NCBI GenBank assembly: GCA_022599775.1
Contig: JAHZLQ010000038.1
Location: 1-64,000 of the forward strand
Length of the DNA stretch: 64,000 nt
Direction: 5' to 3'
From: Gammaproteobacteria bacterium
Lineage (GTDB): Bacteria; Pseudomonadota; Gammaproteobacteria; Nevskiales; Nevskiaceae
The notes under the pieces are model-generated. The model worked only from the letters and a program-made list of their open reading frames with translations, did not search any database and had not been told where the DNA came from. The position numbers and the translations under genes were made by a program. This document shows positions 7,130 to 50,596 of the stretch, one piece after another. Position 1 is the first letter of the stretch, and each line of letters opens with the position of its first letter.

Positions 7130-8713
7130 GTGTATCCGAAGCGTAAAAGCCTGATGACGGTCGTCATGATACTGACTCTGGCGCTACCCGCTGTGGTGCG
7201 CGCTTTTGATCTAACGACCGCGACCATCGCAGATATCCAGACACAGATGGAAGCCGGCCGCCTGAGTTCCGAGCAACTGGTCGCTGCTTATCTTGAACGC
7301 GTCGAAGCCTATGACGACCGGGGTCCAAAAGTTCATACCGTCATTACCCTGAATCCCGATGCGTTGGCCGAGGCACGCGCACTCGACGTCGAGCGTAAGG
7401 CCAACGGACCTCGCTCGCTGCTGCACGGTATTCCACTGGTTCTCAAGGACAACTACGACACAGCGAACATGCCCACGACCGCTGGGTCGAGCCTGCTCAA
7501 GGATTCGATCCCGCCCGATGACGCCTACGTCGTCAAAAAACTGCGCGACGCGGGCGCCATCATCTTGGCGAAGGTCAACCTCAGTGAGTTTGCCTCGGGC
7601 GCCGGAGGTCCCAACGGCTTCAGCTCCATGGGCGGGCAGACGCGCAATCCACACGATCTGACAAAGGGCCCATCGGGCTCCAGCGGCGGTACCGGCGCAT
7701 CGATCGCTGCCGCCTTTGCGCAGTTCGGACTCGGTTCGGACACGGGCGGGTCCATCCGCGGGCCGTCCTCGGCCAACGGAATCGCAGGGCTCAAGCCGAC
7801 ACGGGGGCTCATGAGCCGCAGCGGCATCGTTCCATTGGCGCTGTCGTTCGATACAGGCGGGCCGATGGCGCGTTCGGTATACGACCTTGCTGCGGCCCTC
7901 AGTGTGATGGCCGGCGTCGATCCGGACGATCCGGCGACAGCCGCAAGCGCAGATCATGTGCAGCCAAACTATACCGAGTTCCTCAAGCGCGGTGCGCTCA
8001 AGGGTGCCCGCATCGGTGTCGCGCGCGATTTCTTCGGCCGCGACGCCGGAACCGACGCAGTCATGGAGACGGCGATCAAAAAGCTCCGGGTACTCGGTGC
8101 CGAAGTCGTCGACCCGGTGAACTTTCCGGCTTATCTGCTCGATGCCAAGCAATCGATCTACATGGCCCTGCGTGTGCCGGAATTCAAATGGCAGCTCAAT
8201 GATTACCTGGCGACCCTGGGGCCGGCCCAACCAAAGACCCTGGCGGCGCTGATCGAAAAAGCCGAGGCAGCGGGCAGCCGATACAACAATCCGTGGCGGC
8301 TCGAGTCGATGAAGCAATCGCAGGCGGCCGTTGGTCTGGATGATCCGCTTTACCTGGCGGCGAAGCATGAAGGGCTCGCGATGGTCACGGCTGCAGTATT
8401 GGCGACCTTCGAAAAATACGAACTCGACGCGATCGTCTACCCGACTTCGTCGCGCCCCGCGCGTCCGATCGCTCCCCCGGCGCCGGGTAGCGCCGGCGGG
8501 CCGTCCGCGACAAACATCGCCAACGAGACGGGGTTTCCGGACGTGATCGTGCCGGCCGGCATGACACCCCAGGGCCTGCCGGTGACGATTTCGTTCTTCG
8601 GCAAGGCCTGGAGCGAACCAAAGCTGCTGAGCTATGCCTACGACTTCGAACAGGCGACGCACGCGCGCGTGCTGCCGAAGTTCACCCCGCCACTCGCCAG
8701 TGACCGCTGGTAG
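7130..8713 (+). CDS. Exported amidase A1 (amidase signature family, short Sec type)
   Basis: A 527-residue amidase-signature hydrolase that should cleave C-N amide bonds. Expected catalytic residues are Lys106 (IPLVLKDNYDT), the cis-Ser at about 184 (GPSGSSGGTGAS) and nucleophile Ser208 (GSDTGGSIRGPSS). I chose GTG 7130. It has a strong ribosome-binding site (GAGGGAGAG, 7116-7124) and gives a textbook signal peptide (YPKRKS n-region, LTLALPAVVRA-F). An upstream extension to 7028 is Arg-rich and unlike a protein start. The C-terminal FEQATHARV motif is shared with A6 and A7. It is the first member of the array. Confidence 0.88.
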   Translation: MYPKRKSLMTVVMILTLALPAVVRAFDLTTATIADIQTQMEAGRLSSEQLVAAYLERVEAYDDRGPKVHTVITLNPDALAEARALDVERKANGPRSLLHGIPLVLKDNYDTANMPTTAGSSLLKDSIPPDDAYVVKKLRDAGAIILAKVNLSEFASGAGGPNGFSSMGGQTRNPHDLTKGPSGSSGGTGASIAAAFAQFGLGSDTGGSIRGPSSANGIAGLKPTRGLMSRSGIVPLALSFDTGGPMARSVYDLAAALSVMAGVDPDDPATAASADHVQPNYTEFLKRGALKGARIGVARDFFGRDAGTDAVMETAIKKLRVLGAEVVDPVNFPAYLLDAKQSIYMALRVPEFKWQLNDYLATLGPAQPKTLAALIEKAEAAGSRYNNPWRLESMKQSQAAVGLDDPLYLAAKHEGLAMVTAAVLATFEKYELDAIVYPTSSRPARPIAPPAPGSAGGPSATNIANETGFPDVIVPAGMTPQGLPVTISFFGKAWSEPKLLSYAYDFEQATHARVLPKFTPPLASDRW

Positions 8714-9077
8714 GCCGCCCGCGCCATGCCCGATCGTCGCCCTCGGGCCTCTGTATCGCCAGCGGCGACGAGGCCGTCATCGTGTGCCGTCTGCCGAAGA
8801 TCGCGCCGCCGCATGCGGGCGAGATGTCTGCTGCTGAGACGACACGCGCACACCCGGGCGTGCCGGGTGAGCTGGCAATAGATGGTCGGGTCGGGTGGGG
8901 GCTAGGCGAATGTGACCGTCTCATCGGGCAATAGTCGAAAAAGAGACGGGTGCGTACATCGATCTGCAATCGGAGGCGCTGCATTTCCGCGGTGCTGATG
9001 CGGCGTCCCCGCGCGATCGATCGGGGACCGGGATTGTGCCGGTCCAACAGACCACAAGAATGCAGTCGGGAGCTGAC
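8714..9077 (+). other. Intergenic region between A1 and A2 with a G-rich motif
   Basis: These 364 bases contain no convincing gene. The short minus-strand open frame over 8682-9047 overlaps the end of A1 and resembles no family. At 8891-8901 there is a TCGGGTGGGGG tract, one of a recurring set in front of array genes. The last 10 bases before the A2 start hold its ribosome-binding site (GGGAG, 9068-9072). Confidence 0.5.
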
Positions 9078-11075
9078 ATGTTGAACGCATCATTTTCGCG
9101 CCATTGCCGGGTGGGCATCGTTACGCTTCTCCTGGCACTGATAGGCGCCTGCTCCGCCGACATGCCGCGGGCCGCGATAGCCGCACCGTTCCACCTTCAG
9201 GAGGCGAGCATCGGCGATATTCAGAACGCCATCGTCTCCGGAAATCTAAGCTCCGAGTCGCTGGTCGAGCTGTATCTACAGCGGATCAAAGCTTACAACG
9301 GCACCTGCGTCAGTCAGCCCGAGGGCATCCTGGGACCGATCACGACGATACCCCATGCTGGCCAGATCAATGCGCTGTCGACGCTGAATCTACGACCCGC
9401 CACGCGAAAGGCATGGGGATTTGATGCACGCAAGGCGCGCAGCATGACCGCGGTCGCCGACGATGATCCGGACATGCCTGACGCGCTGGAGGTTGCGGCG
9501 GCGCAGGACGCATATTTTGCGAAGACCGGGAAGCTGGTCGGCCCGCTGCATGGAGTCGTCATGGCGATCAAGGACCAATACGATACCTACGATATGCGCA
9601 CGACCTCGGGCGCTGCGGCGTTCTACGCCAACGACCGTCCGCCGGACGACGCCACTTTCGTCAAGCGGCTGCGCGAGGCTGGTGCGATCATTATCGCCAA
9701 GGCCAATCTTGGCGAATACGCTTCCGCGATACCGCGCAGCTCCTTCGGCGGTACTTTTTGCAATCCCTATGACACCGAGCGCGGTCCGCGCGGTTCCAGC
9801 TCGGGTTCGGGCTCCTCGGTCGCCGCGAACCTCGTCACCTGCGCGATTGCCGAAGAGAGCGGCTCGTCGATCCGTGGTCCGGCCAGTGCCAACAATGTGG
9901 TGGGTATCGCCGCAACCGAAGAATTGGTAAGCCGCGACGGCATGATCCAGCAAGGCATCAATACCCGGGTCGGTCCGATTTGTCGCAATGTGGAAGATAC
10001 GGCAAAGGTGCTTGATGTCATCGCCGGTTACGACCCGGCCGATGAACTCACCGCTTTCACGATCGGGCGTATGCCCGAGGCGCCATATCCGCGGTATGCA
10101 AAGCCCGGGCGGCTGGACGGTCTTCGCATCGGCGTGCTGCGGGAGTACATGAACAAGTCTCTGTTCACCGAAGCCGACGCCGAGAGCATCGATATCGTCG
10201 ACCGCGGCATCCACGAACTTGCCGAACTCGGTGCAACCATCATCGATCCCGGGCCCGAAGGCGCGCTGTTCCAGAGCTGTGTGGACCGCTACTACCCGCA
10301 ACTGCAGGACAAGCAGTTCACCTCCCAGTATCCGGACCTGTTTCCGGTCGACGACGGCAAGCCGGCCGCAGACCACATTGCCACGCTGATCGATATGGCC
10401 GAGGACACCGCGCTAGTGCCTGATGGGCTCAACCTGCGCGAGTTCCCGAGGGTGCAGGCCGAGGGCCAGGCCAAGTACTGGCTCAACCGCTATCTGCGCG
10501 AACGGGGCGACACCGCGATCAGGACGAATACGGACCTGATCACCAAGGCGGAATTTCACGACGACCCGAACTTCCCCGACCGGCGTGAATCGCGGGAACG
10601 CACCGACGAGGCGATGCGTTTGGCGATGGCGCAGCGTCTGCAGATGCGTTTCACGGTGCAACAAATTGTGATGCAGTGCATGGCCGAGCAAGGACTCGAT
10701 GCGCTGGTCTACCCGACCAGCAATCTGCCGCCGGCCAAGCTCGGCGCCCCGCGTGGGCCTCGCGTCAATGGCCGCAGCGGTGGTGGTGTATGGACCTTCA
10801 TCGGCGCCCAGGGGTTTCCTGCGATCACGGTGCCGGCCGGTTTCACCAGCGAGGTTTACGACCTCGTGCGGGATTCGTCCTTGCCCAAGGACGAGGACGG
10901 CGAGGCTGGCACTAGGCTGACCGGCCCCACACCGGCGATCCTGCCAGTCGGTATCGACTTCATGGGGAGACCATTCAGCGAGCCGACCCTGTTCAGAATC
11001 GCGTCGGCCTACGAGGCGGCGACCCGGCACCGTGCACCGCCGCCCGATTTCGGGCCGGTGGAGAACGAGCCGTGA
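9078..11075 (+). CDS. Exported amidase A2 (about 660-aa type), putative lipoprotein
   Basis: A 665-residue amidase-signature protein with Lys165 (VMAIKDQYDT), the cis-Ser at about 240 and nucleophile Ser264 (EESGSSIRGPAS). It differs from A1 by a longer N-terminal part (KAYNGTCVSQPEGILGP ... HAGQINALSTLNLRP) and a long insert in the C-terminal half (about 400-500). ATG 9078 is preceded by GGGAG. The export signal ends LLLALIGAC, a good lipobox, so the protein may be lipid-anchored, unlike A3 and A4. The C-tail ASAYEAATRHRAPPPDFGPV is a hallmark shared with A3, A4, A5, A8, A9 and A10. A2, A3 and A4 form one tandemly duplicated trio. Confidence 0.9.
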   Translation: MLNASFSRHCRVGIVTLLLALIGACSADMPRAAIAAPFHLQEASIGDIQNAIVSGNLSSESLVELYLQRIKAYNGTCVSQPEGILGPITTIPHAGQINALSTLNLRPATRKAWGFDARKARSMTAVADDDPDMPDALEVAAAQDAYFAKTGKLVGPLHGVVMAIKDQYDTYDMRTTSGAAAFYANDRPPDDATFVKRLREAGAIIIAKANLGEYASAIPRSSFGGTFCNPYDTERGPRGSSSGSGSSVAANLVTCAIAEESGSSIRGPASANNVVGIAATEELVSRDGMIQQGINTRVGPICRNVEDTAKVLDVIAGYDPADELTAFTIGRMPEAPYPRYAKPGRLDGLRIGVLREYMNKSLFTEADAESIDIVDRGIHELAELGATIIDPGPEGALFQSCVDRYYPQLQDKQFTSQYPDLFPVDDGKPAADHIATLIDMAEDTALVPDGLNLREFPRVQAEGQAKYWLNRYLRERGDTAIRTNTDLITKAEFHDDPNFPDRRESRERTDEAMRLAMAQRLQMRFTVQQIVMQCMAEQGLDALVYPTSNLPPAKLGAPRGPRVNGRSGGGVWTFIGAQGFPAITVPAGFTSEVYDLVRDSSLPKDEDGEAGTRLTGPTPAILPVGIDFMGRPFSEPTLFRIASAYEAATRHRAPPPDFGPVENEP

Positions 11076-11142: not shown

Positions 11143-13128
11143 ATGCCGAAATTACCTGTCCTCCGGCGCGTATGCGCATACCTCATCCTGCTGGTCGCAG
11201 GAGGCGCGACGCCCGCTATTGCGGCACCCGGCGGCTTCCACCTCGAAGAGGCCACGATCGCCGAAATTCAGGGTGCGATTTTGGCCAAAGATTTGACCAC
11301 AGAACAGTTGATCACCCTCTACCTCAAGCGCATCAAGGCTTACAACGGCACCTGCGTGAGTCAGCCTGATGGCCTTCTCGGGCCGGTGACGCCAATTCCC
11401 CACGCCGGGCAGATCAATGCGCTGCAGACACTGAACCTGCGCCCTGCGGCCCGCAGGCAATGGGGATTCGACGCGCGCAAGGCGCGCAGCATGACCGATG
11501 CCGCGGATGACGATTCCAACATGCCCGATGCGCTGGAAACAGCGCGCGCCCTGGATCGCCGCTTCGCCGAGACCGGCAGACTGGTCGGTCCGCTGCACGG
11601 TGTGGTGATGGCGATCAAGGACCAGTACGACACCTTCGACATGCGTACCACGGCCGGTGCGGATGCGTTCTACGCTAATGATAGGCCGCCCGCGGACGCG
11701 ACCTTTGTCCAGCGTTTGCGCGAGGCGGGCGCGATCATCATCGCCAAGTCCAATCTCGGCGAATTCGCCTCGGCCATCCCGCGTAGTGCTTTTGGCGGAA
11801 CTTTCTGCAATCCCTACGACACCGAGCGCAGCCCGGGTGGTTCGAGTTCCGGTTCCGGTTCGGCGGTTGGCGCCAACCTCGTGACTTGCGCCATCGCCGA
11901 GGAAACCGGCTCGTCCATCCGAGGTCCGGCGTACTCGGCCAACAGCGTCGGGATCGCGCCGACCCAGGAACTCGTAAGCCGGCACGGCATGATTCAACAG
12001 GGTATCAATACTCGTGTGGGGCCGATTTGCCGTACGGTCGCCGATGTCGCGAAGGTGCTCGATGTTATCGCCGGCTACGACCCCAGAGACGAGCTAACGG
12101 CCTTCAGTGTGGGCCGAATGCCGGCGAAGCCGTATGCGAGTTATGCCAAGCCGGGTTCGCTCGACGGTCTGCGTATCGGCGTGGTTCGCGAATACATGGA
12201 CAAGCAGTTGTTCACCAAGGAAGACGAGCAATCCATCGACCTCGTCAGCGCCGCCGCTGCGAAGATGGGAGACCTGGGTGCGACCATGGTCGATCCGGGT
12301 CCCGGTGGCGCGCTGTTCGACGACTGCGTCCGCCGCTACGACCCGCAACTCGAAGACACGCTGTTTACCGACAAGTATCCGGAGATGTTCCCAGTGGATG
12401 CGGATGGCAAGCCCTCGGTCGATCACACCAAAATTCTGATCGATCTTGCCGAGAACCCGACCAAGGTGCCGGAGGAGATCAACTTCAGAAACCTGGGCGG
12501 TGCTCCGACGCCGGGTCAGGGCACGTACTGGCTGGACCGCTACCTGCGTGAGCGCGGCGACGCCAACATCAGGACGGCGGGCGATTTCATCGACAAGGCC
12601 AACTATTATCAAGACCCGAAGTATCCCGATCACCAGCGGCGCCATATTCGCGAAGCCGAAGCGCAAGCGCTCGATATGGCCTTGCGCATGCAGAATCGTT
12701 TTGCGATTCAGTCCATGGTGCTGCAGTGCATGGCCGAAATGAAGCTCGATGCGGTGGTCTATCCGACGAGCAACATTCCGCCGCAGAAGCTCGGCGCTCC
12801 GGGTGGTCCGCGCATCAACAACCGCGCCGGCGATGGCGTGTGGCGGTTCCTTGGCCGTAACGGCTTTCCGGTCATTACCGTACCGGCCGGCTTTACCACG
12901 GAGATGTACGACCGCGTTCGTGTCAACCCGCCCAGACAAACCGACTACGGCGAAGAAGAGGAAACCCGGTTGGTCGGACCGACCACGGCGAGACTCCCAG
13001 TCGGCGTGGACATTGTCGCGCGCCCCTTCGGCGAGCCGGTTTCGCTGCGGATCGCCGCCGCGTATGAAGCCGCAACCCATCACCGTACGCCTCCGTCGGA
13101 GTTTGGACCGCTCGCCGGCGAACCTTGA
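11143..13128 (+). CDS. Exported amidase A3 (about 660-aa type)
   Basis: A 661-residue close paralogue of A2. Lys159 (VMAIKDQYDT), the cis-Ser near 234 and Ser258 (EETGSSIRGPAYS) are present. ATG 11143 gives MPKLPVLRRVCAYLILLVAG and a Sec signal peptide ending AIA-APGG; a TTG one codon earlier is possible. There is no lipobox. It lies 67 bp after A2 with no visible terminator between, so co-transcription is likely. N-terminal block KAYNGTCVSQPDGLLGPVTP matches A2 nearly residue for residue. The C-tail AAAYEAATHHRTPPSEFGPLAGEP is conserved. Confidence 0.9.
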   Translation: MPKLPVLRRVCAYLILLVAGGATPAIAAPGGFHLEEATIAEIQGAILAKDLTTEQLITLYLKRIKAYNGTCVSQPDGLLGPVTPIPHAGQINALQTLNLRPAARRQWGFDARKARSMTDAADDDSNMPDALETARALDRRFAETGRLVGPLHGVVMAIKDQYDTFDMRTTAGADAFYANDRPPADATFVQRLREAGAIIIAKSNLGEFASAIPRSAFGGTFCNPYDTERSPGGSSSGSGSAVGANLVTCAIAEETGSSIRGPAYSANSVGIAPTQELVSRHGMIQQGINTRVGPICRTVADVAKVLDVIAGYDPRDELTAFSVGRMPAKPYASYAKPGSLDGLRIGVVREYMDKQLFTKEDEQSIDLVSAAAAKMGDLGATMVDPGPGGALFDDCVRRYDPQLEDTLFTDKYPEMFPVDADGKPSVDHTKILIDLAENPTKVPEEINFRNLGGAPTPGQGTYWLDRYLRERGDANIRTAGDFIDKANYYQDPKYPDHQRRHIREAEAQALDMALRMQNRFAIQSMVLQCMAEMKLDAVVYPTSNIPPQKLGAPGGPRINNRAGDGVWRFLGRNGFPVITVPAGFTTEMYDRVRVNPPRQTDYGEEEETRLVGPTTARLPVGVDIVARPFGEPVSLRIAAAYEAATHHRTPPSEFGPLAGEP

Positions 13129-13253: not shown

Positions 13254-15242
13254 ATGTCGATCGAGCTGCCTCGTTACTCCCGTTTACTGCGGTCGATATC
13301 GATCATAGGGGTAATCCTGGGACTGTTGACCGCCACCGCTGAAGGGGCCGCGTCCACGCCCTTTCATCTTGAAGAAGCGACGATCGCCGATATTCAGTAT
13401 GCGATCGCTTCCGGGCAGATCAGCACCGTGGGTGTCGTCGAGCTTTACCTGAAGCGGATCAAGGCCTACAACGGGATCTGCGTCAAGCAGCCCAACGGCA
13501 TCCTCGGCGGCGGTGTCGAAACCATCGCGCATGCCGGGCAGATCAACGCGCTGTCCACCTTGAACCTGCGCCCGAAAGCACGGAAGCGGTGGGGTTTCGA
13601 CGCCCGCAAGGCACGCAGCATGACCGACGAAGTCGACGCGGCCCGGGAAATGCCGGACGCCCTCGAGGTGGCTGCAGCACAAGACGCGCAGTTCAAGAAG
13701 GGCGGCAAGCTGGTAGGACCACTGCACGGTGTGGTACTCGCCCTCAAAGACCAGTACGACACCTATGACATGCGGTCGACCTCCGGCGCCGACGCGTTTT
13801 ATGCCGATGATCGTCCGCCGGACGATGCGACGTTCGTCAGGCGTCTGCGCGAGGCCGGTGCGATCATCCTCGCCAAGGCCAATCTGGCCGAGTACGCCAA
13901 TGGAGGCGCACGCAGCTCGTTCGGCGGGGTGTTCTGCAATCCCTATGACACCGAGCGTTCACCGAGCAATTCGAGTTCCGGATCCGGTTCGTCTGTTGCC
14001 GCCAATCTTGTGACCTGTGCCATCGCCGAAGAGACCGGCTCCTCGATTCGGGGGCCGGCACGGGCGAATAACGCGGTCGGAATTGCCCCGACCCAGGAAT
14101 TGATCAGCCGTGACGGCATGATCCAGCCCGGAATCAATACGCGGGTCGGGCCGATCTGCCGCACGGTCAAGGACGCTGCCCGGATTCTCGACGCGTATGC
14201 CGGCTACGACCCCAAGGACGAACTCACGGTCTACAGTGTCGGCCGCATGCCGGCCAAACCCTATGAAAGCTATGCGGAAACCCGGCGGTTGGACGGCGTT
14301 CGTATCGGCGTGGTGCGCGAACTGTTCGACAAGCGGACACTGACGCCGGCTTCCTTCCAGACCGTCGATATCGTCAGCAAGGCCGTGGGAGATCTCAAAT
14401 CGCTGGGAGCGGACATCGTCGACCCCGGCCCCGGTGGTGCGCTGCTTCGGTCCTGCGTCCGCTCGTACGCGCCGCGGCTCGGCAACATTCTGTTCACCGA
14501 CATGTACCCGGAACATTTTCCGGTGAACGATACCGGAGCGCCGGTCGGCGATCATGTGCAGACCTTGGTCGAGATGAGCATGGATCCCGCCACGGTGCCG
14601 GACGATTTCTCGTTCATGACGCTGCCACGCGGTGCAGCCGACGGCGAAAAGAAATTTGGCATGAATCGGTATCTGGCCGAGCGTGGCGATGCCTCGATCA
14701 AGACCAACACCGATCTCGTCAACAAGGCGAACTGGCTGCACGATCCCAATTATCCGGACTTCGAGAACACACGTATCGAGCAGGACAAGGAAATGCATGT
14801 CGACATGTCCGAGCGCATCCTCGACCGCTTCATGGTTCAGACCACGGTCCTGCAGTGCATGCAGTCGCTCAAGCTGGACGCCATGGTCTATCCAACAGCC
14901 AACCTGCCCCCGGAAAAGCTTGGGTCGCCGCGAGACGCGCGTCGTCGTAGCGGCACCACGTCGAGCACGCTGGGACGCGAAGGGTTTCCGGCCATCACTG
15001 TGCCTGCGGGCTTCACGACCGAAGTGTATGACCGGGAAATCGATCCCAGCGCTTCAGAGCAAGGTGCTGAGCAGGCGACCCGCCTGGTCGGGCCGGTGGC
15101 GGCGAAGATGCCGGTGGGCATTGACTTCGTCGGCCGTCCATTTGATGAGCCGACACTGATCCGGATCGCCTCGGCGTATGAGGCGGCAACGCATCACCGC
15201 CAGGCGCCGCCGGAGTTCGGGCCGCTCAGAGGCGAGCCCTGA
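13254..15242 (+). CDS. Exported amidase A4 (about 660-aa type)
   Basis: A 662-residue third member of the A2-A4 trio. Lys165 (VLALKDQYDT), the cis-Ser near 240 (NSSSGSGSS) and Ser264 (EETGSSIRGPAR) are intact. The start is ATG 13254 with CGGAG upstream; an in-frame extension to 13125 overlaps the end of A3 and looks non-coding. The signal peptide has a long n-region (MSIELPRYSRLLRS) then a hydrophobic stretch ending about AEGAA-STP. It is somewhat further from A2 and A3 than they are from each other (GICVKQPNGILGGGVETIAHAG insert, ILDAYAGYDPKDELTVYS). Confidence 0.9.
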   Translation: MSIELPRYSRLLRSISIIGVILGLLTATAEGAASTPFHLEEATIADIQYAIASGQISTVGVVELYLKRIKAYNGICVKQPNGILGGGVETIAHAGQINALSTLNLRPKARKRWGFDARKARSMTDEVDAAREMPDALEVAAAQDAQFKKGGKLVGPLHGVVLALKDQYDTYDMRSTSGADAFYADDRPPDDATFVRRLREAGAIILAKANLAEYANGGARSSFGGVFCNPYDTERSPSNSSSGSGSSVAANLVTCAIAEETGSSIRGPARANNAVGIAPTQELISRDGMIQPGINTRVGPICRTVKDAARILDAYAGYDPKDELTVYSVGRMPAKPYESYAETRRLDGVRIGVVRELFDKRTLTPASFQTVDIVSKAVGDLKSLGADIVDPGPGGALLRSCVRSYAPRLGNILFTDMYPEHFPVNDTGAPVGDHVQTLVEMSMDPATVPDDFSFMTLPRGAADGEKKFGMNRYLAERGDASIKTNTDLVNKANWLHDPNYPDFENTRIEQDKEMHVDMSERILDRFMVQTTVLQCMQSLKLDAMVYPTANLPPEKLGSPRDARRRSGTTSSTLGREGFPAITVPAGFTTEVYDREIDPSASEQGAEQATRLVGPVAAKMPVGIDFVGRPFDEPTLIRIASAYEAATHHRQAPPEFGPLRGEP

Positions 15243-30636: not shown

Positions 30637-30692
30637 GCCCCGTTGAGTTACACTTTCAGTTCATCGGAAAAACTGGAAGGCGGGGCTGTGAT

Positions 30693-41228: not shown

Positions 41229-42360
41229 GGCAAGACCGACCTTGAGGTATCCGACGGCGCGCGCTGCATGGGTTCTGTGGCTGCTGTGTCCGGTGCTGTG
41301 GGCCCAGGAAATTCCGACCTATGTACCGCCGCCGCCGATGCCGGCGCAGCGAGCCGATTTGCCTACCGTGGTGCTGATGTCGATGGGGGGCACGATCGCC
41401 AGCCGCGGAACCCCGCGGCTCAACATCACCAATTACGGCGGTGACGGCAACAAGCGCGTCGATCCGCAGGATTGGGTCGACGACCTGCCGGAGCTCGCCG
41501 GCATCGCCAATATTCGCCTTGATGACCAACGCGCTCCCCGCGATCGCACCTCGGGTTCCGAGACGCACGAGGACTTTGCACGCGTTGCGAGGCGACTCAA
41601 TGAGCTTGCCAAGGATCCGGACATCGACGGCTTCGTCGTCACCCATGGCACCAATACCATGGCCGAAACTGCTTGGTACATGAATCTCACAGTACGGACC
41701 GACAAACCGATCGTGTTCGTCGGTTCACAGCGCCCGTGGACCGGGCTGTCCGGCGACGGTCCTCGCAATCTCTACGATGCGGTCCGTGTCGCCGCGTCGA
41801 AGGCGGCGTGGGGCAAAGGTGTGCTGCAGTGCATGAACCAGTACATCAATACCGCACGCGATGTCGACAAGACCATTGCCTATCGCGTCAATACATTTCA
41901 GGGCGTCGATGTCGGAGCCATTGGATTTGCTGATCCGGACAAGGTCGTGTTTTACCGCGAACCGGTTCGCCGCCACACCTATCTTTCGGAATTCGCCGGG
42001 ATGGACCTGCCGTCGGTACCCGACGTGGAAGTCGCTTTCGCTTATCGAGACGCGCCCGGCTATCTGATCGATGCAATGGTCGCGCGTGGTGTCCGCGGCA
42101 TCGTTGTCGAGGGCACCGGGGCCGGCAGCGCCACGACCAGTCAGCGCGATGCGATCAAGCGCGCTCAGGAGCAAGGCGTGGTTGTGGTGATGACCGCGCG
42201 TACACAGGGCGGACGTGTTCAGGATACCCCGCGCCGCCGCGCGGCCAAAATTGTGCCGGGCGACAACCTGCTGCCGGAGAAGGCCCGCATCCTCTTGCAG
42301 TTGACGCTGACCCAGACCAGCGATCTGGCTGAAATCGAGCGCATATTCAACGAGTACTGA
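41218..42360 (+). CDS. Exported asparaginase-like protein 2 with altered active site
   Basis: A 380-residue paralogue of the preceding protein, with ATG 41218 inside its end. The N-terminus has a signal peptide (AAWVLWLLCPVLWA-QEIP) and a short Pro-rich linker. At the nucleophile position the sequence is SMGGTIAS, so Met56 replaces the catalytic Thr. In the second motif HGTNTMAET it has Asn146 instead of Asp. Lys218 (DVDKTIAY) is kept. It may be a non-catalytic partner of protein 1, or use different chemistry. Both end in the same FNEY tail, showing recent common origin. A12 starts three bases after its stop. Confidence 0.85.
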   Translation: MSTEARPTLRYPTARAAWVLWLLCPVLWAQEIPTYVPPPPMPAQRADLPTVVLMSMGGTIASRGTPRLNITNYGGDGNKRVDPQDWVDDLPELAGIANIRLDDQRAPRDRTSGSETHEDFARVARRLNELAKDPDIDGFVVTHGTNTMAETAWYMNLTVRTDKPIVFVGSQRPWTGLSGDGPRNLYDAVRVAASKAAWGKGVLQCMNQYINTARDVDKTIAYRVNTFQGVDVGAIGFADPDKVVFYREPVRRHTYLSEFAGMDLPSVPDVEVAFAYRDAPGYLIDAMVARGVRGIVVEGTGAGSATTSQRDAIKRAQEQGVVVVMTARTQGGRVQDTPRRRAAKIVPGDNLLPEKARILLQLTLTQTSDLAEIERIFNEY

Positions 42361-42363: not shown

Positions 42364-43932
42364 ATGGATATAAACACGCCTAGCTTACTGTCCACGCGAC
42401 GTCAGTTTCTCAGCGGCCGGCGGGGACCGGTCGGCGCGGCCGCTGCCGGGCTGCTGTTGACCCAGTGCACACCGAAGGCATCGCCGGACGTGACGGCATC
42501 GAGCGATGCGAGTGATGAACTGATCTTCATGTCGGCGACCAAGCTGGCGAGTCTGATCCGCAGCAAGCAGTTGTCGGCGGTCGAGGCTGTAGAGGCATAT
42601 ATCGCGCGCCAACTCGTGGTCAACGACCTGCTCAATGCGGTCGTAATGAATGCCTACGCTCGCGCTCGGCAGGAAGCCAAGGCGCTGGATGCCCGTGCGG
42701 CGAGGGGCGAATTCGTCGGCCCCCTGCATGGTGTGCCGATCACGATCAAGGACTCGATCGACACCGAGGGCATTATCAGCACCGGTGCAACCTATGGTCG
42801 CCAGCAGTTCGTTCCGGAACGGGACGCCACAGTGGTTGCACGGCTGCGCAGCGCCGGTGCGATCTTGCTCGGCAAGACCAATACGCCGGAATTCACGCTG
42901 GGTGGGTTGGGCGGCATCAGTACCACGAGCAATCTGCTTTACGGTTCCTCACACAATCCCTACGACCTGACGCGTAGTACCTCGGGGTCGTCCGGCGGCG
43001 CCGGCGCGATCGTCGCTGCGGGCGGGTCGGCTTTCGACATCGGTTCGGATTGGGGTGGGTCGATTCGTGGCCCAGCCCACAACAACGGCATTGCCGGCAT
43101 TAAGCCGACCAGCGTTCGTGTCCCACGAACGGGCCACATCGTCGACTACGGCGGTGTCTTCGATTTGTGGCAGCAACTCGGCCCGCTAGCGCGGCGCGTG
43201 GAGGACCTGAACTTGGTCACCCCGATCATTGCTGGGCCGGACTTCCGCGATGCGGCCTGTGCGCCGGTGCCCTGGGCCGATCCCGGCGAAGTGGATCTCA
43301 AGCGTCTGCGTGTGGCGTTCTGTGACGATAACGGCGGCACTGGCCGTAGTGCCACTGACGATGACACTCGAAAGACCGTTCGCCAAGCCGCAGCCTGGCT
43401 GCGCGGCTCGGTCGCCAGCCTTGAGGAAACGGCGCCGACGGCGATTCTGAATCAGCTACGCGACGCGCGGTCGACGCTTATCAGCGGTGACGGTTGGGCG
43501 TTCTACAAACGGCTGGTCGACAAATGGGGCACGGTCAATTTCTCGCCGCGACGCGAACAGGCGATGGAGGAGGCCAAGCCCGTCAGCGCGGCCAGGATGG
43601 TGGAAGCGTGGGAGCAGCACGATGAGGCCAAGTCGCGGATGCTCGCATGGATGCGGGACTACGACGTCTTCCTGTGCCCAGTGTCGTCGACGCCTGCGCG
43701 GCCGATCGATGTCGAGACCAACGAAGGCGGCGGCAGTAGCGGCTGGTCGTATACCGGCAGCTTCAACTCCACCGGTTGGCCGGTGGTCGTGGTGCGCTGC
43801 GGCTCCTCGGAGGACGGCAGCTTGCCTATCGGAGTACAGGTAGTGGCTGCACCGTGGCGCGAGGATATCTGTCTCGCTGTCGCAGGCTTTCTGGAAAGCC
43901 GGTCCGAAGGCTGGCAGAAGCCGCCGATCTGA
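42364..43932 (+). CDS. Tat-exported amidase A12, putative lipoprotein
   Basis: A 522-residue amidase with a twin-arginine signal (STRRQFLSG, residues 10-18) followed by AAAAGLLLTQC, a lipobox-like end, so a Tat lipoprotein is likely. Lys129 (VPITIKDSIDT), the cis-Ser near 209 (TSGSSGGAGA) and Ser233 (SDWGGSIRGPAH) are present. After the signal it shares SDELIFMSATKLASLIR with A14, its closest relative (A12/A14 pair). The end reads WREDICLAVAGFLESRSEGWQKPPI. The start is three bases after the asparaginase pair, so it is presumably in the same transcript. Confidence 0.9.
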   Translation: MDINTPSLLSTRRQFLSGRRGPVGAAAAGLLLTQCTPKASPDVTASSDASDELIFMSATKLASLIRSKQLSAVEAVEAYIARQLVVNDLLNAVVMNAYARARQEAKALDARAARGEFVGPLHGVPITIKDSIDTEGIISTGATYGRQQFVPERDATVVARLRSAGAILLGKTNTPEFTLGGLGGISTTSNLLYGSSHNPYDLTRSTSGSSGGAGAIVAAGGSAFDIGSDWGGSIRGPAHNNGIAGIKPTSVRVPRTGHIVDYGGVFDLWQQLGPLARRVEDLNLVTPIIAGPDFRDAACAPVPWADPGEVDLKRLRVAFCDDNGGTGRSATDDDTRKTVRQAAAWLRGSVASLEETAPTAILNQLRDARSTLISGDGWAFYKRLVDKWGTVNFSPRREQAMEEAKPVSAARMVEAWEQHDEAKSRMLAWMRDYDVFLCPVSSTPARPIDVETNEGGGSSGWSYTGSFNSTGWPVVVVRCGSSEDGSLPIGVQVVAAPWREDICLAVAGFLESRSEGWQKPPI

Positions 43933-44016: not shown

Positions 44017-45552
44017 ATGGAGACGTCAACAGCCGAAGCCGACGACGGGGCCGCATTCGGCCCCGGCTATACGCGTCGGCGCTTTCTCGGTACGGCAGCA
44101 CTGGCCGGAACCGGGTTGGCGCTCACGCAGTTCAGCTCGCGGGCCCTCGCAGCACCGGATGCGCTGCTGACAAGGTCGGTGACCGAGATTGCGGCGATGC
44201 TGCAAAACGGAAAGATCGGATCGCTCGATCTGGTCAAGGCTTGTTACGCTCGCATCGACGAGGTCAACCCCACGATCAATGCCGTGGTCATGCAATGTCG
44301 CGAGCGCGCATTTGCCGAGGCGGCCGAAGCCGATGCGCAAATGGCCGCCGGCATGTCGCTGGGACCGCTGCACGGTGTACCGTTCACGATCAAGGATTCG
44401 TTCGATACCGTTGGCGTCGTCAGCACCGGCGGAACGCTAGGTCGCAAAGATTTCATTCCGGGTGAGGATGCCACCGTAGTTGCCCGTCTACGCGCCGCGG
44501 GTGGCATCCTGCTAGGCAAGACCAACACTCCGGAATTCACATTGGGGGGTGGCGCCCGCGGCACCTACAATTTGATTTACGGTCAGACCCGCAATCCCTA
44601 CAACACCGCCTATACGCCGTCCGGTTCTTCGGGCGGAGCCGGCGCGATCGTCGCGTCGTGTGGCTCCTTCTTTGATGTCGGTACGGACTACGGAGGGTCG
44701 ATCCGCGGCCCCTCCAATGTCAACGGTATCACCGGGATCAAGCCGACGCTGGGCCGCGTTCCGCGCACCGGCCACATCGTCGGCTACGGCGGCCCCTACG
44801 ATTCGTTCCAGGAAGTGGGGCCGATGGCACGACATGTCGGAGATCTGGCGCTGCTGCTGCCGATCCTCGCGGGCCCCGACGACCGCGATGCGGCGATGGC
44901 TCCGGTTCCGCTGGGCAATCCTGCCGACGTCGATCTGAAGTCCCTGCGTGTGGCCTATTACACCAGTAACGGAGTGACCGACCCCAGCGATGAAATCCAG
45001 GCGATGGTCGAGCGCTGTGCCGGCTATTTTTCGAAACTGGGTTGCAAACTCAAATCGGATATGCCACCCCGGATGCAGGCGTTGTCCGACGCGCGCCGCG
45101 CATTCAGCGGAGCCAGCGGCGGGGACAACCGTCGGCGCATGCTTGAGAAGTACGGTACAAAGCAGGCTTCGCCCGGCCTCAACATCGGCGGAGAGACGAT
45201 CAGCAGTGCCGAGTTCACCGCGGCGTGCGAGGAAATGGATGCGATCAAGAGCGAGCAACTCGCCTGGTTTGAGCAGTACGATCTGATCCTCTGCCCGAGC
45301 AGCGCCACGGCGCCGGACAAGATTCCGCCGGAATTCGTGCGTCCCCGCGGCCGTCGTGGCCTCAGTTACAACAGCCAGTACAACACCACGGGCTGGCCGG
45401 CGGGAGTCGTGCGTGCCGGTACCTCGGAAGACGCGCCGGGTCTTCCGCTCGGAATCCAGGTCGTCGCGCAACCGTGGCGGGACGACGTGGCGCTGGCAGC
45501 GATGGCCCACATAGAAGGTAAAGCGGGCGGCTGGCAAATGCCGCCGATTTAG
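44017..45552 (+). CDS. Tat-exported amidase A13
   Basis: A 511-residue amidase with Tat signal YTRRRFLGTAALAGTGLALTQ and cleavage near ALA-APD. Lys126 (VPFTIKDSFDT), the cis-Ser near 204 (PSGSSGGAGA) and Ser228 (TDYGGSIRGPSN) are intact. It is nearly twin to A16: GARGTYNLIYGQTRNPYNTAYTP, SGGDNRRRMLEKYGTKQASPGLN and GWQMPPI are shared. A14 begins nine bases after its stop. The conserved Tat route suggests folding, or cofactor or oligomer assembly, before export, unlike the Sec-type amidases upstream. Confidence 0.9.
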   Translation: METSTAEADDGAAFGPGYTRRRFLGTAALAGTGLALTQFSSRALAAPDALLTRSVTEIAAMLQNGKIGSLDLVKACYARIDEVNPTINAVVMQCRERAFAEAAEADAQMAAGMSLGPLHGVPFTIKDSFDTVGVVSTGGTLGRKDFIPGEDATVVARLRAAGGILLGKTNTPEFTLGGGARGTYNLIYGQTRNPYNTAYTPSGSSGGAGAIVASCGSFFDVGTDYGGSIRGPSNVNGITGIKPTLGRVPRTGHIVGYGGPYDSFQEVGPMARHVGDLALLLPILAGPDDRDAAMAPVPLGNPADVDLKSLRVAYYTSNGVTDPSDEIQAMVERCAGYFSKLGCKLKSDMPPRMQALSDARRAFSGASGGDNRRRMLEKYGTKQASPGLNIGGETISSAEFTAACEEMDAIKSEQLAWFEQYDLILCPSSATAPDKIPPEFVRPRGRRGLSYNSQYNTTGWPAGVVRAGTSEDAPGLPLGIQVVAQPWRDDVALAAMAHIEGKAGGWQMPPI

Positions 45553-45561
45553 GAATCGTTC

Positions 45562-47127
45562 ATGAATTTGCCAGTCAGTCTGTTTCCAAACGTTCCGGAC
45601 GGCATGAGCCGTCGCGCCCTGCTGGGCATGCCGCGTTCGCCAACGCTGGTAGCCGCCACGGCGAGTGTGTTACCCGCTGCCGCCCACGCAGTATCGACGG
45701 ATTCGTCCGACGAACTGGTCTTCATGTCGGCGACCAAGCTGGCCGGCCTCATCCGGCGCCGCCAAGTCTCAGCGCTGGAGGTCGTGGACGCCTATATCGC
45801 ACGTCAGATCGCCGTCAATGATCGGCTCAACGCGGTCGTCATGAACTGCTATGAGCGCGCGCGCGCAGAAGCCCGGGCGATGGACGCGCGAGCAGCGCGC
45901 GGAAACTGGGTCGGGCTGCTGCACGGTGTACCAATGACGATCAAGGACTCGATTGACACCGTTGGAGTCATCAGTACCGGTGCGACGTTCGGCCGCCAGC
46001 AGTATGTGCCCGAGCGCGATGCCACCGTGGTTCGGCGCGTGCGCGAGGCCGGTGCAATCCTGCTGGGCAAGACCAACACGCCGGAGTTCACGCTCGGTGG
46101 TCTCGGCGGAATCAACACCGCCAGCAATCTGCTCTACGGGTCTTCGCACAATCCTTATGATCTGAAGCGCAGCACCGCCGGTTCCTCGGGCGGTGCAGGT
46201 GCCATTGTGGCCGCCGGAGGAGCGGCCTTCGATATCGGTTCGGACTGGGGCGGCTCGATACGAAGCCCCGCGCACAACAACGGAATTGCTGGCATCAAGC
46301 CGACTAGTGTCCGTGTTCCGCGCACCGGCCATATCGTTGATTACGGCGGCATCTTCGACCTGTGGCAGCAACTGGGGCCGATGACGCGCCGCGTCGAGGA
46401 CTTGGCCCTGATTACGCCGATCATCGCTGGGCCGGATTTCCATGATGCCGCCTGCGCACCGGTGCCTTGGGGCGATCCGGCCGATGTGGACCTGAAACGC
46501 TTGCGCGTGGCCTTTTGCCCCGACAATGGCGGGACCGGCAGCGACGCCACCAGCGAGGACACCAAGGCCGTCGTACGACAGGCCGCGAAGTGGATGCAGG
46601 ACCTTGCAGAATCGGTCACCGAAGATGCGCCGTTGGATGTGCTCAAGGCGTTGACCGAGGCACGCGGCAAGCTGTCACGCGGTGATGGAGGTGCCTTCTA
46701 CAAGCGCTTGGCCGATAAATGGGGAACGCACAATTTTTCACCCGCGCGCAAGGCCGGCATGGAGAAGCTCATACCGCTGAGCAGCGCAGAAATGATCGAA
46801 GCCTGGGAGAACCAGGACGCGTGCAAGTCGAAGATGCTGCAGTGGATGAATGCATATGACGTATTTCTGTGTCCGGTGAGGGCCACGCCCGCGGCGCTGA
46901 TCGACGCCGAGCACGGGCCGGAAACCGGCGAGCGCGGCTGGTCCTACCGGGGAGTGTTCAATTGCACCGGTTGGCCAGTAGTGGTGGTGCGAGCGGGCAG
47001 CTCGTCCGACAAAACGCTGCCGATCGGCGTACAGGTAGTGGCGCCGCCCTGGCGTGAAGATATTTGTCTGGCTGTGGCTGCGCATATCGAAAGCCGCTCG
47101 GGAGGCTGGAAGAAGCCCCCGATCTGA
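45562..47127 (+). CDS. Tat-type exported amidase A14
   Basis: A 521-residue amidase, the close paralogue of A12. The N-terminus has MSRRALLGMPRS at residues 15-26, a weaker twin-arginine signal, and a probable cleavage site at AHA-VST. Lys128 (VPMTIKDSIDT), the cis-Ser near 208 and Ser232 (SDWGGSIRSPAH) are present. The core NPYDLKRSTAGSSGGAGA, the VPRTGHIVDYGGIFDLWQQLGP block and the end WREDICLAVAAHIESRSGGWKKPPI match A12 almost throughout. A12-A13 and A14-A16 look like a duplicated pair of genes, with A15 inserted in the second pair. Confidence 0.9.
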   Translation: MNLPVSLFPNVPDGMSRRALLGMPRSPTLVAATASVLPAAAHAVSTDSSDELVFMSATKLAGLIRRRQVSALEVVDAYIARQIAVNDRLNAVVMNCYERARAEARAMDARAARGNWVGLLHGVPMTIKDSIDTVGVISTGATFGRQQYVPERDATVVRRVREAGAILLGKTNTPEFTLGGLGGINTASNLLYGSSHNPYDLKRSTAGSSGGAGAIVAAGGAAFDIGSDWGGSIRSPAHNNGIAGIKPTSVRVPRTGHIVDYGGIFDLWQQLGPMTRRVEDLALITPIIAGPDFHDAACAPVPWGDPADVDLKRLRVAFCPDNGGTGSDATSEDTKAVVRQAAKWMQDLAESVTEDAPLDVLKALTEARGKLSRGDGGAFYKRLADKWGTHNFSPARKAGMEKLIPLSSAEMIEAWENQDACKSKMLQWMNAYDVFLCPVRATPAALIDAEHGPETGERGWSYRGVFNCTGWPVVVVRAGSSSDKTLPIGVQVVAPPWREDICLAVAAHIESRSGGWKKPPI

Positions 47128-47221: not shown

Positions 47222-48961
47222 ATGAACGATATCGCGGCGTCGCGCCGCCGGTTCATCACCGGCTTCGCGCAACTGGGTCTGGGGTCCAGCCTGCTGCCAG
47301 GTGTGCTGTGGGCACAAATGGAGCATACCGGCACGCGCAGGGTCTCTCCGGGGATGATGAAGTCGGCCGCGGCACTGTCTGGCCTCGAACTCAGCGACGC
47401 GGATTGCGAGACGATTGCGGAGTCGGTAAACGAGAATTTCGAGCGCATCACGGCGCTGCATTCGGTGCGGATACCGAACGACGTCGCACCGCCGTTCTAT
47501 TTCAGCCCGCTGGTACCGGGCATGAGGGTTGAGCGAGCGCAGCTGCCGTTTCGAACAAGCAAGGTGTCGGGCCTAAGGCGTCCGGCCGATCTGGAGGAGA
47601 TCGCGTTCTGGCCAGTGAGGCGACTTGCCGAGCTGGTCCGGACGCGGGCTGTCACTTCCACCGAACTGACACGCATGTATCTGTCGCGGCTGCACCGGTA
47701 TAACCCAAAGCTCAATTGCGTCGTGAGCTTTCTTGACGACGTGGCGCTGGCACAGGCGAAAAAGGCGGACGCCGAAATTGCCGCCGGCCGCTATCGGGGA
47801 CCGTTGCACGGCATTCCGTGGGGCGCCAAGGACATTATGGCGTTCAAGGGTCACAAGACCACCTGGGGTTCGGCTGTATATTCGGATCGCGTCATCGACG
47901 AGACGGCGACAGTGATCCGGTTGCTCAGTGAGTACGGCGCCGTGCTGTTGGCAAAACTGTCGACTGGGGAATTGGCCGGGGGGGATCAATGGTTTGGCGG
48001 GCGCACCAACAATCCGTGGAATCTCGACGAAGGGTCCAGCGGTTCTTCGGCTGGTTCTGCGTGCGCCACTGCGGCGGGTTGTGTCGCGTTCGCACTGGGC
48101 ACCGAAACCAGTGGTTCCATCCTGAGTCCCTCTGGCCGCTGTGGTGCGACTGGTCTGCGACCGACCTTTGGTCGCGTCAGCCGTTACGGCGTCATGGCGC
48201 TATCGTGGACACAAGACCGCATCGGCCCTATCTGTCGGGACGTTGAGGACTGCGCCCTAGTGATGAACGTGATTGCGCGGCCAGACGGTCGCGATCTGAG
48301 CGTGTCCGAGCTGCCGTTCAATTGGGACGCCGGCCTCGATTTGCGCCGTGTGCGTGTCGGCTACGTCAAGGAGGCGTTCGCGGATGCGGATCGTTATCCC
48401 GAATGGGTGCGCAACGATCATGACAGCATCGAGCAGCTGCGGTCGTTGGGATTCGACCTGTCGCCCGTTACGCTGCCTGACTTTCCGACCGAATCGCTAC
48501 GCCTGAGCGTCGAAGCCGCTGTCTTCCATGATGAGCTCCTGCGTTCCGGACAATACAAGCAGATGACCAATCCGTCGCGCGGCGAGCGTATGCTGGCCAG
48601 CCGCCTGATTCCCGCCGTGGAATATCTGCAGTCGCAGCGCCTGCGCTCGATGATGATGCAACAGCTGGCGCACGCGACCGCTGGTGTAGACGTCTATCTG
48701 GCACCGTCGACGCACGGCGCCCCGAGAAATCGCACCACCGATGCGCCGGCAAGCCGCAGCCGTGATCATTTCAACATGGCCAATCTGGCCTGCTACCCAG
48801 CGCTGGCGGTCCCCAACGGCTTCACTTCGGCAGGCACGCCAACCAGCATCAGTTTCATGGCTCGCCCGTATCGCGAAGCCGAATTGCTGGCTGTGGCCAA
48901 GGCCTATCAGGACGCAACCGGTTTTAACACCAGACAACCGCCGGCGTTCGCCGCCGCATAG
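47222..48961 (+). CDS. Tat-exported amidase A15, divergent member with GatC-like N-region
   Basis: A 579-residue amidase, the odd one out. The Tat signal is SRRRFITGFAQLG with cleavage near LWA-QME. Residues about 45-105 (AAALSGLELSDADCETIAES ... PPFYFSPLVPG) resemble the helical GatC-like region seen in front of some amidases. The core has Lys203 (IPWGAKDIMAFK), the cis-Ser near 275 (GSSGSSAGSA) and Ser299 (GTETSGSILSPSG), closer to GatA of the tRNA amidotransferase than to the other array members. No GatB is present and the protein is exported, so a tRNA role is unlikely. Confidence 0.88.
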   Translation: MNDIAASRRRFITGFAQLGLGSSLLPGVLWAQMEHTGTRRVSPGMMKSAAALSGLELSDADCETIAESVNENFERITALHSVRIPNDVAPPFYFSPLVPGMRVERAQLPFRTSKVSGLRRPADLEEIAFWPVRRLAELVRTRAVTSTELTRMYLSRLHRYNPKLNCVVSFLDDVALAQAKKADAEIAAGRYRGPLHGIPWGAKDIMAFKGHKTTWGSAVYSDRVIDETATVIRLLSEYGAVLLAKLSTGELAGGDQWFGGRTNNPWNLDEGSSGSSAGSACATAAGCVAFALGTETSGSILSPSGRCGATGLRPTFGRVSRYGVMALSWTQDRIGPICRDVEDCALVMNVIARPDGRDLSVSELPFNWDAGLDLRRVRVGYVKEAFADADRYPEWVRNDHDSIEQLRSLGFDLSPVTLPDFPTESLRLSVEAAVFHDELLRSGQYKQMTNPSRGERMLASRLIPAVEYLQSQRLRSMMMQQLAHATAGVDVYLAPSTHGAPRNRTTDAPASRSRDHFNMANLACYPALAVPNGFTSAGTPTSISFMARPYREAELLAVAKAYQDATGFNTRQPPAFAAA

Positions 48962-49025: not shown

Positions 49026-49066
49026 AAGGGCAGCGCCTTCATCGGGCGTTCAACGGAGACAATGAC

Positions 49067-50596
49067 ATGAGCACAGACTTGGCGCGCGCGCGGCGGCCGG
49101 CGAATGTTTCGACACTGACACGTCGGAGCTTCTTGGGTACGGCGGCCAAGACCGGAACAGCTGTCGCGTTGACGCGATACAGTCCGCGTGCACTTTCTGC
49201 GCCGGATCAGTTGCTGCGCCAATCGGCGACGCAGATCGCGGCCCAGCTGCGCAGCGGCCAGCTCAAGGCGGTGGATGTCGTCAGGGCATGTTACGCGCGT
49301 ATCGACGAGGTTCATGCCAAGCTCAACGCGGTGGTTATGCAATGCCGGGAACGCGCTCTCGCCGAAGCCGCGGAAGCCGACGCCCAACTCGCCGCCGGCA
49401 AGATTCTGGGGCCGCTGCATGGTGTTCCGTTCACGATCAAGGACTCGTTCGATACGGCGGGCGTGATCAGCACTGGTGGTACGTTGGGGCGCAAATCATT
49501 CATTCCAGGTGAGGATGCGACGGTGGTTGCGCGGCTGCGCGCGGCCGGAGGAATTTTGCTGGGCAAGACGAATACTCCGGAGTTCACTCTGGGTGGTGGT
49601 GCGCGCGGCACTTACAACCTGATCTACGGGCAGACCTACAATCCGTACAACACAGCCTATAGTCCGGCCGGTTCCTCGGGCGGGGCTGGAGCCATCGTTG
49701 CAGCCTGCGGCTCATTTTTCGATATCGGATCCGACTATGGCGGATCGATCCGTAGTCCAGCCAATTTCAACGGGATTGCGGGGATCAAGCCCACGCTGGG
49801 TCGTGTGCCGCGTACCGGGCACATCGTCGATTACGGCGGACCGTACGACTCGTTCCAGGAGACCGGTCCTCTGGCGCGCTACGTTGAAGACCTGACGCTG
49901 TTGCTGCCGATCATCGCCGGTCCAGATGGCCGCGACGCGGCGATGGTGCCGGTGCCGCTCGGCAATCCGCAAATGGTCGAGCTCAAGAAGCTGCGCGTGG
50001 CCTACTATACGAGCAACGGAGTAACTGATCCGACGCGCGAGATACAGGGACTGGTCGAGCGATGCGCCGACCATTTTTCGAAGCTCGGCTGCAAGCTGAC
50101 ACGGGATATGCCGCCGAAGATGCAGACGCTGGCGGATGCACGCAGCCGATTCAGCAATGCCAGTGGTGGCGATAATCGTCGGCGAATGCTCCGGAAGTAC
50201 GGGACTCGTCAGGCGTCGCCCGGGCTGAATCTCAGCGGAACCGTAATCAGCAGCGCGGAGTTCACTGCCGCCTGTGAAGAGATGGACGCGATCAAAAGCG
50301 AGCAACTCGGCTGGTTCAAGCAATACGACCTCATCGTCTGTCCCGCACGTGCGTTACCGCCGCGGCCGGTGCCGCCGGAATTCGTCCGCAAGCAGAGTCG
50401 CGGACTCAGTTATACGAGTCAGTACAACACCACGGGCTGGCCTGCTGGCGTCGTGAGGGCAGGCACCTCAACTGAGGAAAAGGGCTTGCCTCTCGGTATC
50501 CAGTTGGTGGCGCGACCGTGGCGGGATGACGTCGCCCTGGCGGCGATGGCGCTGATTGAGCAACAAGCAGGCGGTTGGGAAATGCCACCCGTGTAG
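49067..50596 (+). CDS. Tat-exported amidase A16
   Basis: A 509-residue amidase, the last of the array. ATG 49067 has CGGAG upstream and gives MSTDLARARRP then Tat signal LTRRSFLGTAAKTGTAVALTR and cleavage near LSA-APD. Lys125 (VPFTIKDSFDT), the cis-Ser near 203 and Ser227 (SDYGGSIRSPAN) are intact. It is closest to A13. An in-frame extension to 48995 is possible but would hide the Tat motif. A terminator-like hairpin about 100 bp downstream closes the array. Confidence 0.9.
   Translation: MSTDLARARRPANVSTLTRRSFLGTAAKTGTAVALTRYSPRALSAPDQLLRQSATQIAAQLRSGQLKAVDVVRACYARIDEVHAKLNAVVMQCRERALAEAAEADAQLAAGKILGPLHGVPFTIKDSFDTAGVISTGGTLGRKSFIPGEDATVVARLRAAGGILLGKTNTPEFTLGGGARGTYNLIYGQTYNPYNTAYSPAGSSGGAGAIVAACGSFFDIGSDYGGSIRSPANFNGIAGIKPTLGRVPRTGHIVDYGGPYDSFQETGPLARYVEDLTLLLPIIAGPDGRDAAMVPVPLGNPQMVELKKLRVAYYTSNGVTDPTREIQGLVERCADHFSKLGCKLTRDMPPKMQTLADARSRFSNASGGDNRRRMLRKYGTRQASPGLNLSGTVISSAEFTAACEEMDAIKSEQLGWFKQYDLIVCPARALPPRPVPPEFVRKQSRGLSYTSQYNTTGWPAGVVRAGTSTEEKGLPLGIQLVARPWRDDVALAAMALIEQQAGGWEMPPV

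Follow-up and report, generated by a model that had tools for sequence, protein, structure and literature searches.

A genomic island of co-directional amidase genes in a Nevskiaceae genome is a candidate TonB-coupled utilisation locus for peptides or other amides

The 64,000-nucleotide stretch analysed here (the window; contig JAHZLQ010000038.1, C38, of the Nevskiaceae genome GCA_022599775.1, G000) carries sixteen amidase genes on one strand between positions 7130 and 50596, together with a TonB-type energiser, two asparaginase-like genes, and a gene of the acetamidase/formamidase family. We propose, at an even chance of being right, that the window forms the right part of an island constituting a TonB-coupled utilisation locus under the control of a sensor, whose exported enzymes, resembling peptide amidases, would de-amidate peptides or other amides. 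The architecture of this locus was observed directly in its gene content, its intact catalytic triads, its old subfamilies, the recurrence of its partner genes across genera, and a congener (G001) in which the island flanks are nearly contiguous; from these observations we infer its substrate, export, and regulation.

All sixteen proteins matched PF01425 in a Pfam scan of positions 7130-50596 (124-333 bits, cut-off 27), all are encoded on the + strand, and the catalytic lysine, cis-serine, and nucleophile serine are invariant in an alignment of the 16, as the initial annotation had read from the sequence. They comprise A1 (7130-8713, 333 bits), the mid-length A2 (9078-11075), A3 (11143-13128), and A4 (13254-15242), the long A5 (15304-17580), A8 (28215-30551), A9 (32291-34588), and A10 (34715-37000), and further A6 (17688-19337) with its sister A7 (19348-21006), A11 (38465-40057), A12 (42364-43932), A13 (44017-45552), A14 (45562-47127), A15 (47222-48961), and A16 (49067-50596). 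Intergenic gaps across 25 genes range from -11 to 476 bases, and because most are below 150 bases (20 of 24), long transcripts across the array are plausible. The whole genome holds 23 PF01425 genes (from 28 match rows, since five rows are the second stretch of a gene already matched). Of these, 16 lie in the window and two more on a second contig (C78); should C78 and C38 belong to one island, 18 of the 23 would fall within about 69 kb of the 4.27-Mb genome. These 18 genes are all co-directional, and orientations are mixed in relatives (14 on the + and four on the - strand in G003, five and 11 in G022).

An export-like N-terminal basic/hydrophobic segment is predicted for 19 of 19 enzymes (the 16 amidases, both asparaginases, and the FmdA-family protein) by a simple script that reads hydropathy and motifs, used in place of SignalP, in line with the apparent export signals noted initially. 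The script assigned A1-A11 to the Sec type, with a lipobox in A2, and found a twin-arginine motif, suggestive of twin-arginine translocation (Tat), in A12-A16; A8 also matched a loose twin-arginine pattern. Among relatives, the motif occurs in five of eight A12/14-like, 12 of 15 A13/16-like, and four of four A15-like proteins, in two of 23 A6/7-like proteins, and in one of three Fx proteins.

The peptide amidase Pam, whose gene occurs as a single gene, is the nearest solved structure by sequence for A6 (PDB 1m21, E = 5e-97), A2, and A10 among the four amidases compared in a PDB search. The likeness extends, by sequence and model, to the fold and the triad, whereas the Pam chains (503-514 residues) are shorter than the mid-length and long types (661-778 residues). 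The predicted structure of A10, built from 98 rows with a mean confidence (pLDDT) of 93.3, has the fold and triad of Pam at 28% identity over 474 residues; it replaced a first, poor model from eight sequences (pLDDT 41.5). Judged by these nearest relatives, deamidation of peptides or primary amides would fit better than a general breakdown of amides.

In a FastTree tree of 96 amidases, with 32 of its 93 inner branches supported at less than 80, the window amidases split into about ten subfamilies. Most of these include members from Solimonas, Hydrocarboniphaga, or other genomes, several also from Cellvibrionaceae, and A8 is without a close counterpart in the set. The closer pairs by identity are A6/A7 (78%), A13/A16 (79%), and A12/A14 (75%). 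Estimates of dN/dS were 0.116-0.160 for five paralogue pairs and 0.164-0.263 for five orthologue pairs, with dS near or above 1, so that their direction alone is safe. As judged from these comparisons, the subfamilies are old and under purifying selection. The tree and the arrays in other genera rule out a recent duplication within one strain, an outcome that the initial annotation had set against its own reading. In a survey of 123 proteins (eight lacking the Lys/Ser/Ser reading, namely six partial or masked sequences and two full-length copies from G022), the loops flanking the nucleophile are constant within, and different between, several subfamilies (A9-, A10-, and A15-like). The earlier suggestion that the enzymes are diversified for different bonds would draw on these loop differences.

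Pfam also confirmed the two asparaginase-like genes and the acetamidase/formamidase-family gene. Asn1 (40194-41228, +) is a type II L-asparaginase by TIGR00520 (367 bits, cut-off 314.3) and PDB match (9bad, E = 6.3e-87), the asparaginase-family Asn2 (41218-42360, +; PF00710/PF17763) falls short of that cut-off (290.5 bits), and the exported-type FmdA/AmdA-family protein (37288-38391, +; PF03069) matches an acetamidase (PDB 2ii1, E = 4.9e-36). Asparaginases and FmdA are nutrient-type enzymes that act on primary amides. Two further proteins recur in the arrays. H553 (L018:15451-17109) is a polytopic-looking membrane protein with many invariant histidines, possibly a membrane metalloenzyme, for which sequence searches of Pfam, NCBIfam, PADLOC, and the PDB returned no family; it adjoins Asn1/Asn2 in G003, G008, G049, and G051 and lies apart from them, on C78, in G000. 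H586 (L010:7264-9021), a long protein, shows an asparaginase core at a weak score (TIGR00520, 64.8 bits); it recurs in several arrays and was not seen in the G000 island.

Among 85 genomes of the order, 14 have at least 13 PF01425 hits and the other 71 have one to 12, the counts being lower bounds wherever the maximum of 17 scored candidates was reached, and a model of the long amidases (E ≤ 1e-60) matches the same 14 genomes, which belong to four of 21 genera and one family and include Hydrocarboniphaga and Solimonas; in G037 this search showed a mid-length match only. A class-wide even sample yielded the long amidase in none of 368 other genomes (at most two candidates scored per genome). 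Of 7995 proteins scored in a protein search, 5156 were relatives at E ≤ 1e-30. Relatives are also encoded by 325 stretches in a collection of named genomes. Eighty of these loci were analysed, many of them cut by contig ends: 50 have a single amidase, and many of the 50 come from bins that bear the labels Acidobacteria, Marinimicrobia, or Rhodospirillaceae, while the other 30 have between two and 11. Four to 11 amidases were counted in each of five further records (one bin of Cellvibrionaceae, one of Thalassocella, and three gammaproteobacterial bins), with at least one partner (H586, Asn, Fmd, or H553) in four of the five; the Thalassocella record (12.8 kb) is without any.

Eight long arrays were fetched from genomes of the family, on two or three contigs each for G000, G003, and G033, and annotated with the proteins of the window, C78, and the G003 and G008 loci. 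They hold 18 (G000), 18 (G003), 10 (G008), 16 (G022), 16 (G033), nine (G048), 17 (G049), and 15 (G051) amidases. An extracytoplasmic function (ECF) sigma factor, FecR, a homologue of a TonB-dependent receptor (TBDR) with an STN domain, a resistance-nodulation-division (RND) pump, and a membrane fusion protein (MFP) accompany all eight. A complete second TBDR is present in seven, G000 showing its start only, at the end of C78. Asn1, Asn2, Fmd, and H553 likewise occur in seven, none lying within 60 kb of the G048 array, and the TonB2 module described below occurs in six.

Comparison with the congener suggests that the window belongs to an island. Over 51036-54490, a stretch encoding Ku-LigD, the window and G001 share 95.5% identity, and this identity stops at 51036, 439 bases past the last amidase gene, which marks the right edge. 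Across that point the G001 DNA matches 9.8 kb of C78 at 94.4%, ending at C78:119765, so that the flanks of the island are 108 bases apart in G001. Beyond its flank, C78 encodes a DUF3228 gene, two amidases, an MFP and RND pair, and H553, followed by the ECF sigma factor, FecR, the STN-TBDR homologue, and, at the contig end, the start of the second TBDR. C38 begins just before a DUF3450 gene, and DUF3450 follows the second TBDR in G003, G008, G022, G048, G033, and G027. From both flanks, the orientation, and this gene order in relatives we infer the succession of C78 and C38; the two would then make up a single island of 69 kb or more (18.3 + 51.0 kb), with the window as its likely right part. 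The array is absent from G001, which has four PF01425 matches and no match for the model of the long amidases; either gain in one lineage or loss in the other would account for this difference.

The start of the window is occupied by a TonB2/TtpBCD set in one run (483-5984, all +): a TtpB-like DUF3450 protein (483-1160; PF11932, 250 bits), a long, TtpC-like ExbB (1217-2545) and a further ExbB (2490-3059; both PF01618), two ExbD proteins (3133-3486 and 3630-4046; PF02472), TonB (4110-4721; PF03544), and a TtpD-like tetratricopeptide repeat (TPR) protein (4725-5984; TPR families). The nearest known energiser is the Vibrio TonB2 system, described in PMC6957404 as TtpB-TtpC-ExbB-ExbD-TonB-TtpD, with TtpB2 a DUF3450 protein and TtpD2 bearing TPR motifs. 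DUF3450, ExbB, ExbD, TonB, and TPR genes are grouped in both, while the Vibrio system serves siderophores (PMC6957404) and the window module has two ExbD genes and is linked to amidases. The long ExbB of the array type (at least 64% identity) occurs in 10 of the 14 array genomes and in two of the 71 others (Fisher p = 2e-8, relatedness ignored). One of these two, G027, has the same sigma/FecR/TBDR set beside a partial array that lies at a contig end; the other, G024, carries no such array.

The ECF sigma factor, FecR, and signalling TBDR genes are adjacent in G008, G022, G048, G049, G033, and G027, and in G000 they lie on C78. The set resembles the FecI-FecR-FecA system of cell-surface signalling in its sigma factor and FecR and, in G008, in its receptor. 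Of the two receptors scanned with Pfam, that of G008 has an STN domain, whereas the 988-aa receptor of G000 shows Plug but no STN; the latter aligns with the former over 967 residues at 56%.

Interspersed among the amidase genes are three SPFH/Band 7 genes, a P-type ATPase gene, a gene for a protein with three TonB_C domains, and one insertion sequence (IS) element. The SPFH proteins (PF01145, +) are a membrane protein (22147-24036, start uncertain, possibly 22315), an HflC-like protein (24033-25028; TIGR01932 below cut-off), and an HflK-like protein (25029-26075; TIGR01933 below cut-off), followed by the P1B-type ATPase (26093-27970, +; TIGR01525, 492 bits, cut-off 346). The metal-site motif of this ATPase is CPS in the window and G008 and CPC in G003. 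The initial annotation had suggested looking for SPFH/ATPase and TonB genes beside such arrays, and both associations hold in part, TonB2 modules accompanying six of the eight arrays and an orthologue of the SPFH-linked ATPase (at least 56% identity) occurring in eight of 14 array genomes vs none of 71 others (Fisher p = 6e-8, relatedness ignored), three of which carry a relative at 34-37%. The block lies within three of the eight fetched stretches; in G003 it is found on a different contig, where its neighbours are Fmd and an amidase of mid length. Pseudomonas aeruginosa likewise has an operon with three SPFH proteins (PaFlo5-PaFlo6-PaFlo7; PMC13086221), which we liken to the window by gene grouping, not by orthology; the main text of that paper does not contain the words ATPase and amidase (PMC13086221).

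The three-TonB_C protein (21060-22175, +; PF03544, three stretches) has a signal-peptide-like start and was matched in none of 19 other stretches searched. A small TonB_C protein is encoded on the - strand (6090-6890) between the TonB2 module and A1. Among the Pfam-scanned genes, which do not include every neighbour, no glycan-active enzyme was found inside the island, and an alpha-amylase gene (58373-60883) lies outside it.

We propose that the signalling TBDR, FecR, and the ECF sigma factor would turn the locus on when the substrate is present, and that the second TBDR, powered by the TonB2-type complex, would import it. Amidases exported by the Sec or Tat route, many of the peptide amidase type, would then strip carboxamide nitrogen together with the asparaginases and the FmdA-family enzyme, releasing ammonia, with each amidase subfamily preferring a different substrate. 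The products would enter via transporters encoded elsewhere, for example peptide ABC importers, and the RND pump and the SPFH/P-type ATPase block would protect or organise the envelope. The initial annotation had compared the array to a polysaccharide utilisation locus (PUL), and this utilisation logic is now better supported because the sigma/FecR/receptor set, the second TBDR, the TonB2 module, and the RND genes recur with the arrays; the substrate side of the comparison stays conditional. The broader proposal, of a new class of utilisation locus that moves horizontally as a 50-100 kb cassette and combines sensing at the outer membrane, TonB-driven uptake, and up to eighteen diversified exported amidases, so that a bacterium would mine peptide and amide nitrogen as the nitrogen counterpart of the PUL, seems to us somewhat less than evenly probable.

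Several observations weigh against this proposal. The ends of C78 and C38 share no overlap of at least 15 bases and the contigs are not physically joined; the tail encoded by the first 107 bases of C38 matches no receptor tail and no called protein of the compared loci. The Solimonas arrays G049 and G051 have no TonB2 module in the fetched stretch, the ATPase orthologue extends to just eight of the 14 array genomes, and RND and MFP genes are common, so that finding them in a fetched stretch carries less weight than finding amidase-specific partners. Queries for peptide ABC importer genes (substrate-binding protein, OppB, ABC) gave no match in any of 14 array stretches, and the product importer was therefore not found. 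All amidases scanned against NCBIfam (11 of 16) fell below every listed cut-off (best scores for A1 489.8 bits vs 534 for PRK08137, and for A6 462.3 vs 534), and the best PDB match of A13 is GatA, with GatA, urethanases, and ClbL at least as close as Pam. The A11-like (four motifs among eight proteins) and A1-like best-hit groups have mixed loops, and the two full-length G022 copies, both A13-like, have threonine in place of the cis-serine (L109:11090-14281; region coordinates 51090-54281). The nearest solved TBDRs to both receptors are siderophore or colicin receptors, matched weakly and mainly in the plug domain; solved signalling receptors are mostly of this type. Finally, the window contains no sigma-54 site (one mismatch allowed) and no Fur box (three mismatches allowed) in scans that covered the window and not the C78 part, so that neither nitrogen nor iron control is supported, and sigma-54 and Fur were set aside as candidate regulators.

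An unlikely alternative, the one that survives best, is a detoxification island in which toxic peptides or amide antibiotics would be broken down by the exported amidases and expelled or tolerated by means of the RND, SPFH, and P-type ATPase proteins. RND and MFP genes in every fetched array, the SPFH-linked ATPase in more than half of the array genomes, a beta-lactamase-family gene in the G003 locus, and the island-like, patchy distribution would suit it, but the asparaginases and FmdA are of nutrient type, and two TBDRs with a dedicated energiser suggest import rather than exclusion. PADLOC matched none of ten proteins, a result that also led us to reject an anti-phage defence system.

It is decidedly improbable that the locus serves a xenosiderophore or metallophore, with a Fec-type system sensing and importing a peptidic or hydroxamate chelator, the amidases dismantling it, and the P1B ATPase handling the metal. 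Eighteen amidases and two asparaginases seem beyond the needs of a chelator, the window lacks a Fur box (the C78 part being outside the scan), and no iron reductase or siderophore ABC gene was found among the Pfam-scanned neighbours, a subset of all neighbours. In addition, TonB2 modules chosen away from arrays pair with peptide importers, five of five lying near a peptide-binding-protein gene. Such a role would be favoured by the ECF sigma factor, FecR, and STN-TBDR, which are the classic siderophore arrangement, by the siderophore receptors as nearest solved relatives, and by the role of Vibrio TonB2 systems in iron uptake (PMC6957404).

We consider it very doubtful that the arrays serve carbon rather than nitrogen acquisition through cleavage of secondary amides, such as N-acyl amino acids, N-acyl homoserine lactones, fatty amides, or polyamides. 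The position of A13, no nearer to Pam than to GatA, urethanases, and ClbL, and the arrays in Hydrocarboniphaga and Solimonas, both hydrocarbon-using genera, would agree with such a role; against it, A2, A6, and A10 are nearest to Pam, and primary amides are the substrates of asparaginases and FmdA.

Amplification of the genes by selfish or neutral processes, in the absence of a common function, has almost no credibility left: although closer tandem pairs (A6/A7, A12/A14, and A13/A16) and an IS element exist inside the array, the triads are intact, dN/dS is 0.12-0.26, the subfamilies are common to several genera, and the partner genes recur. The IS element (30616-32006, +), which sits between A8 and A9 and breaks no gene, looks intact, with perfect 21-bp inverted repeats found by repeat search, a DDE_Tnp_1 transposase (30693-31814; PF01609), and a flanking 11-bp direct repeat.

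Utilisation loci with sensors, TBDRs, and exported enzyme arrays are established for glycans. PULs and TBDR carbohydrate loci share with the present locus a sensor/regulator, a TBDR, and duplicated, diversified exported hydrolases, a likeness drawn from these components; glycosidases there correspond to amidases here, and the regulator here is an ECF sigma/FecR pair. The parts all belong to known families, and what appears new is their combination, a utilisation locus with amidases as its enzyme set. Literature searches of titles and abstract openings, with few subscription journals, returned no amidase array or locus of this kind, in agreement with the initial annotation. The idea of nitrogen limitation in the neuston for Nevskia was set aside, a search having given no citable literature support.

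If the proposal is true, dissolved amide and peptide nitrogen in water and soil would be contested by the same genomic logic as glycans. The array would also supply, ready-made by nature, about ten amidase subfamilies that have diverged from one another, among them Cys-rich long forms with their nearest solved relative at 28% identity, and such a set would allow one to ask what substrate the array was built for.

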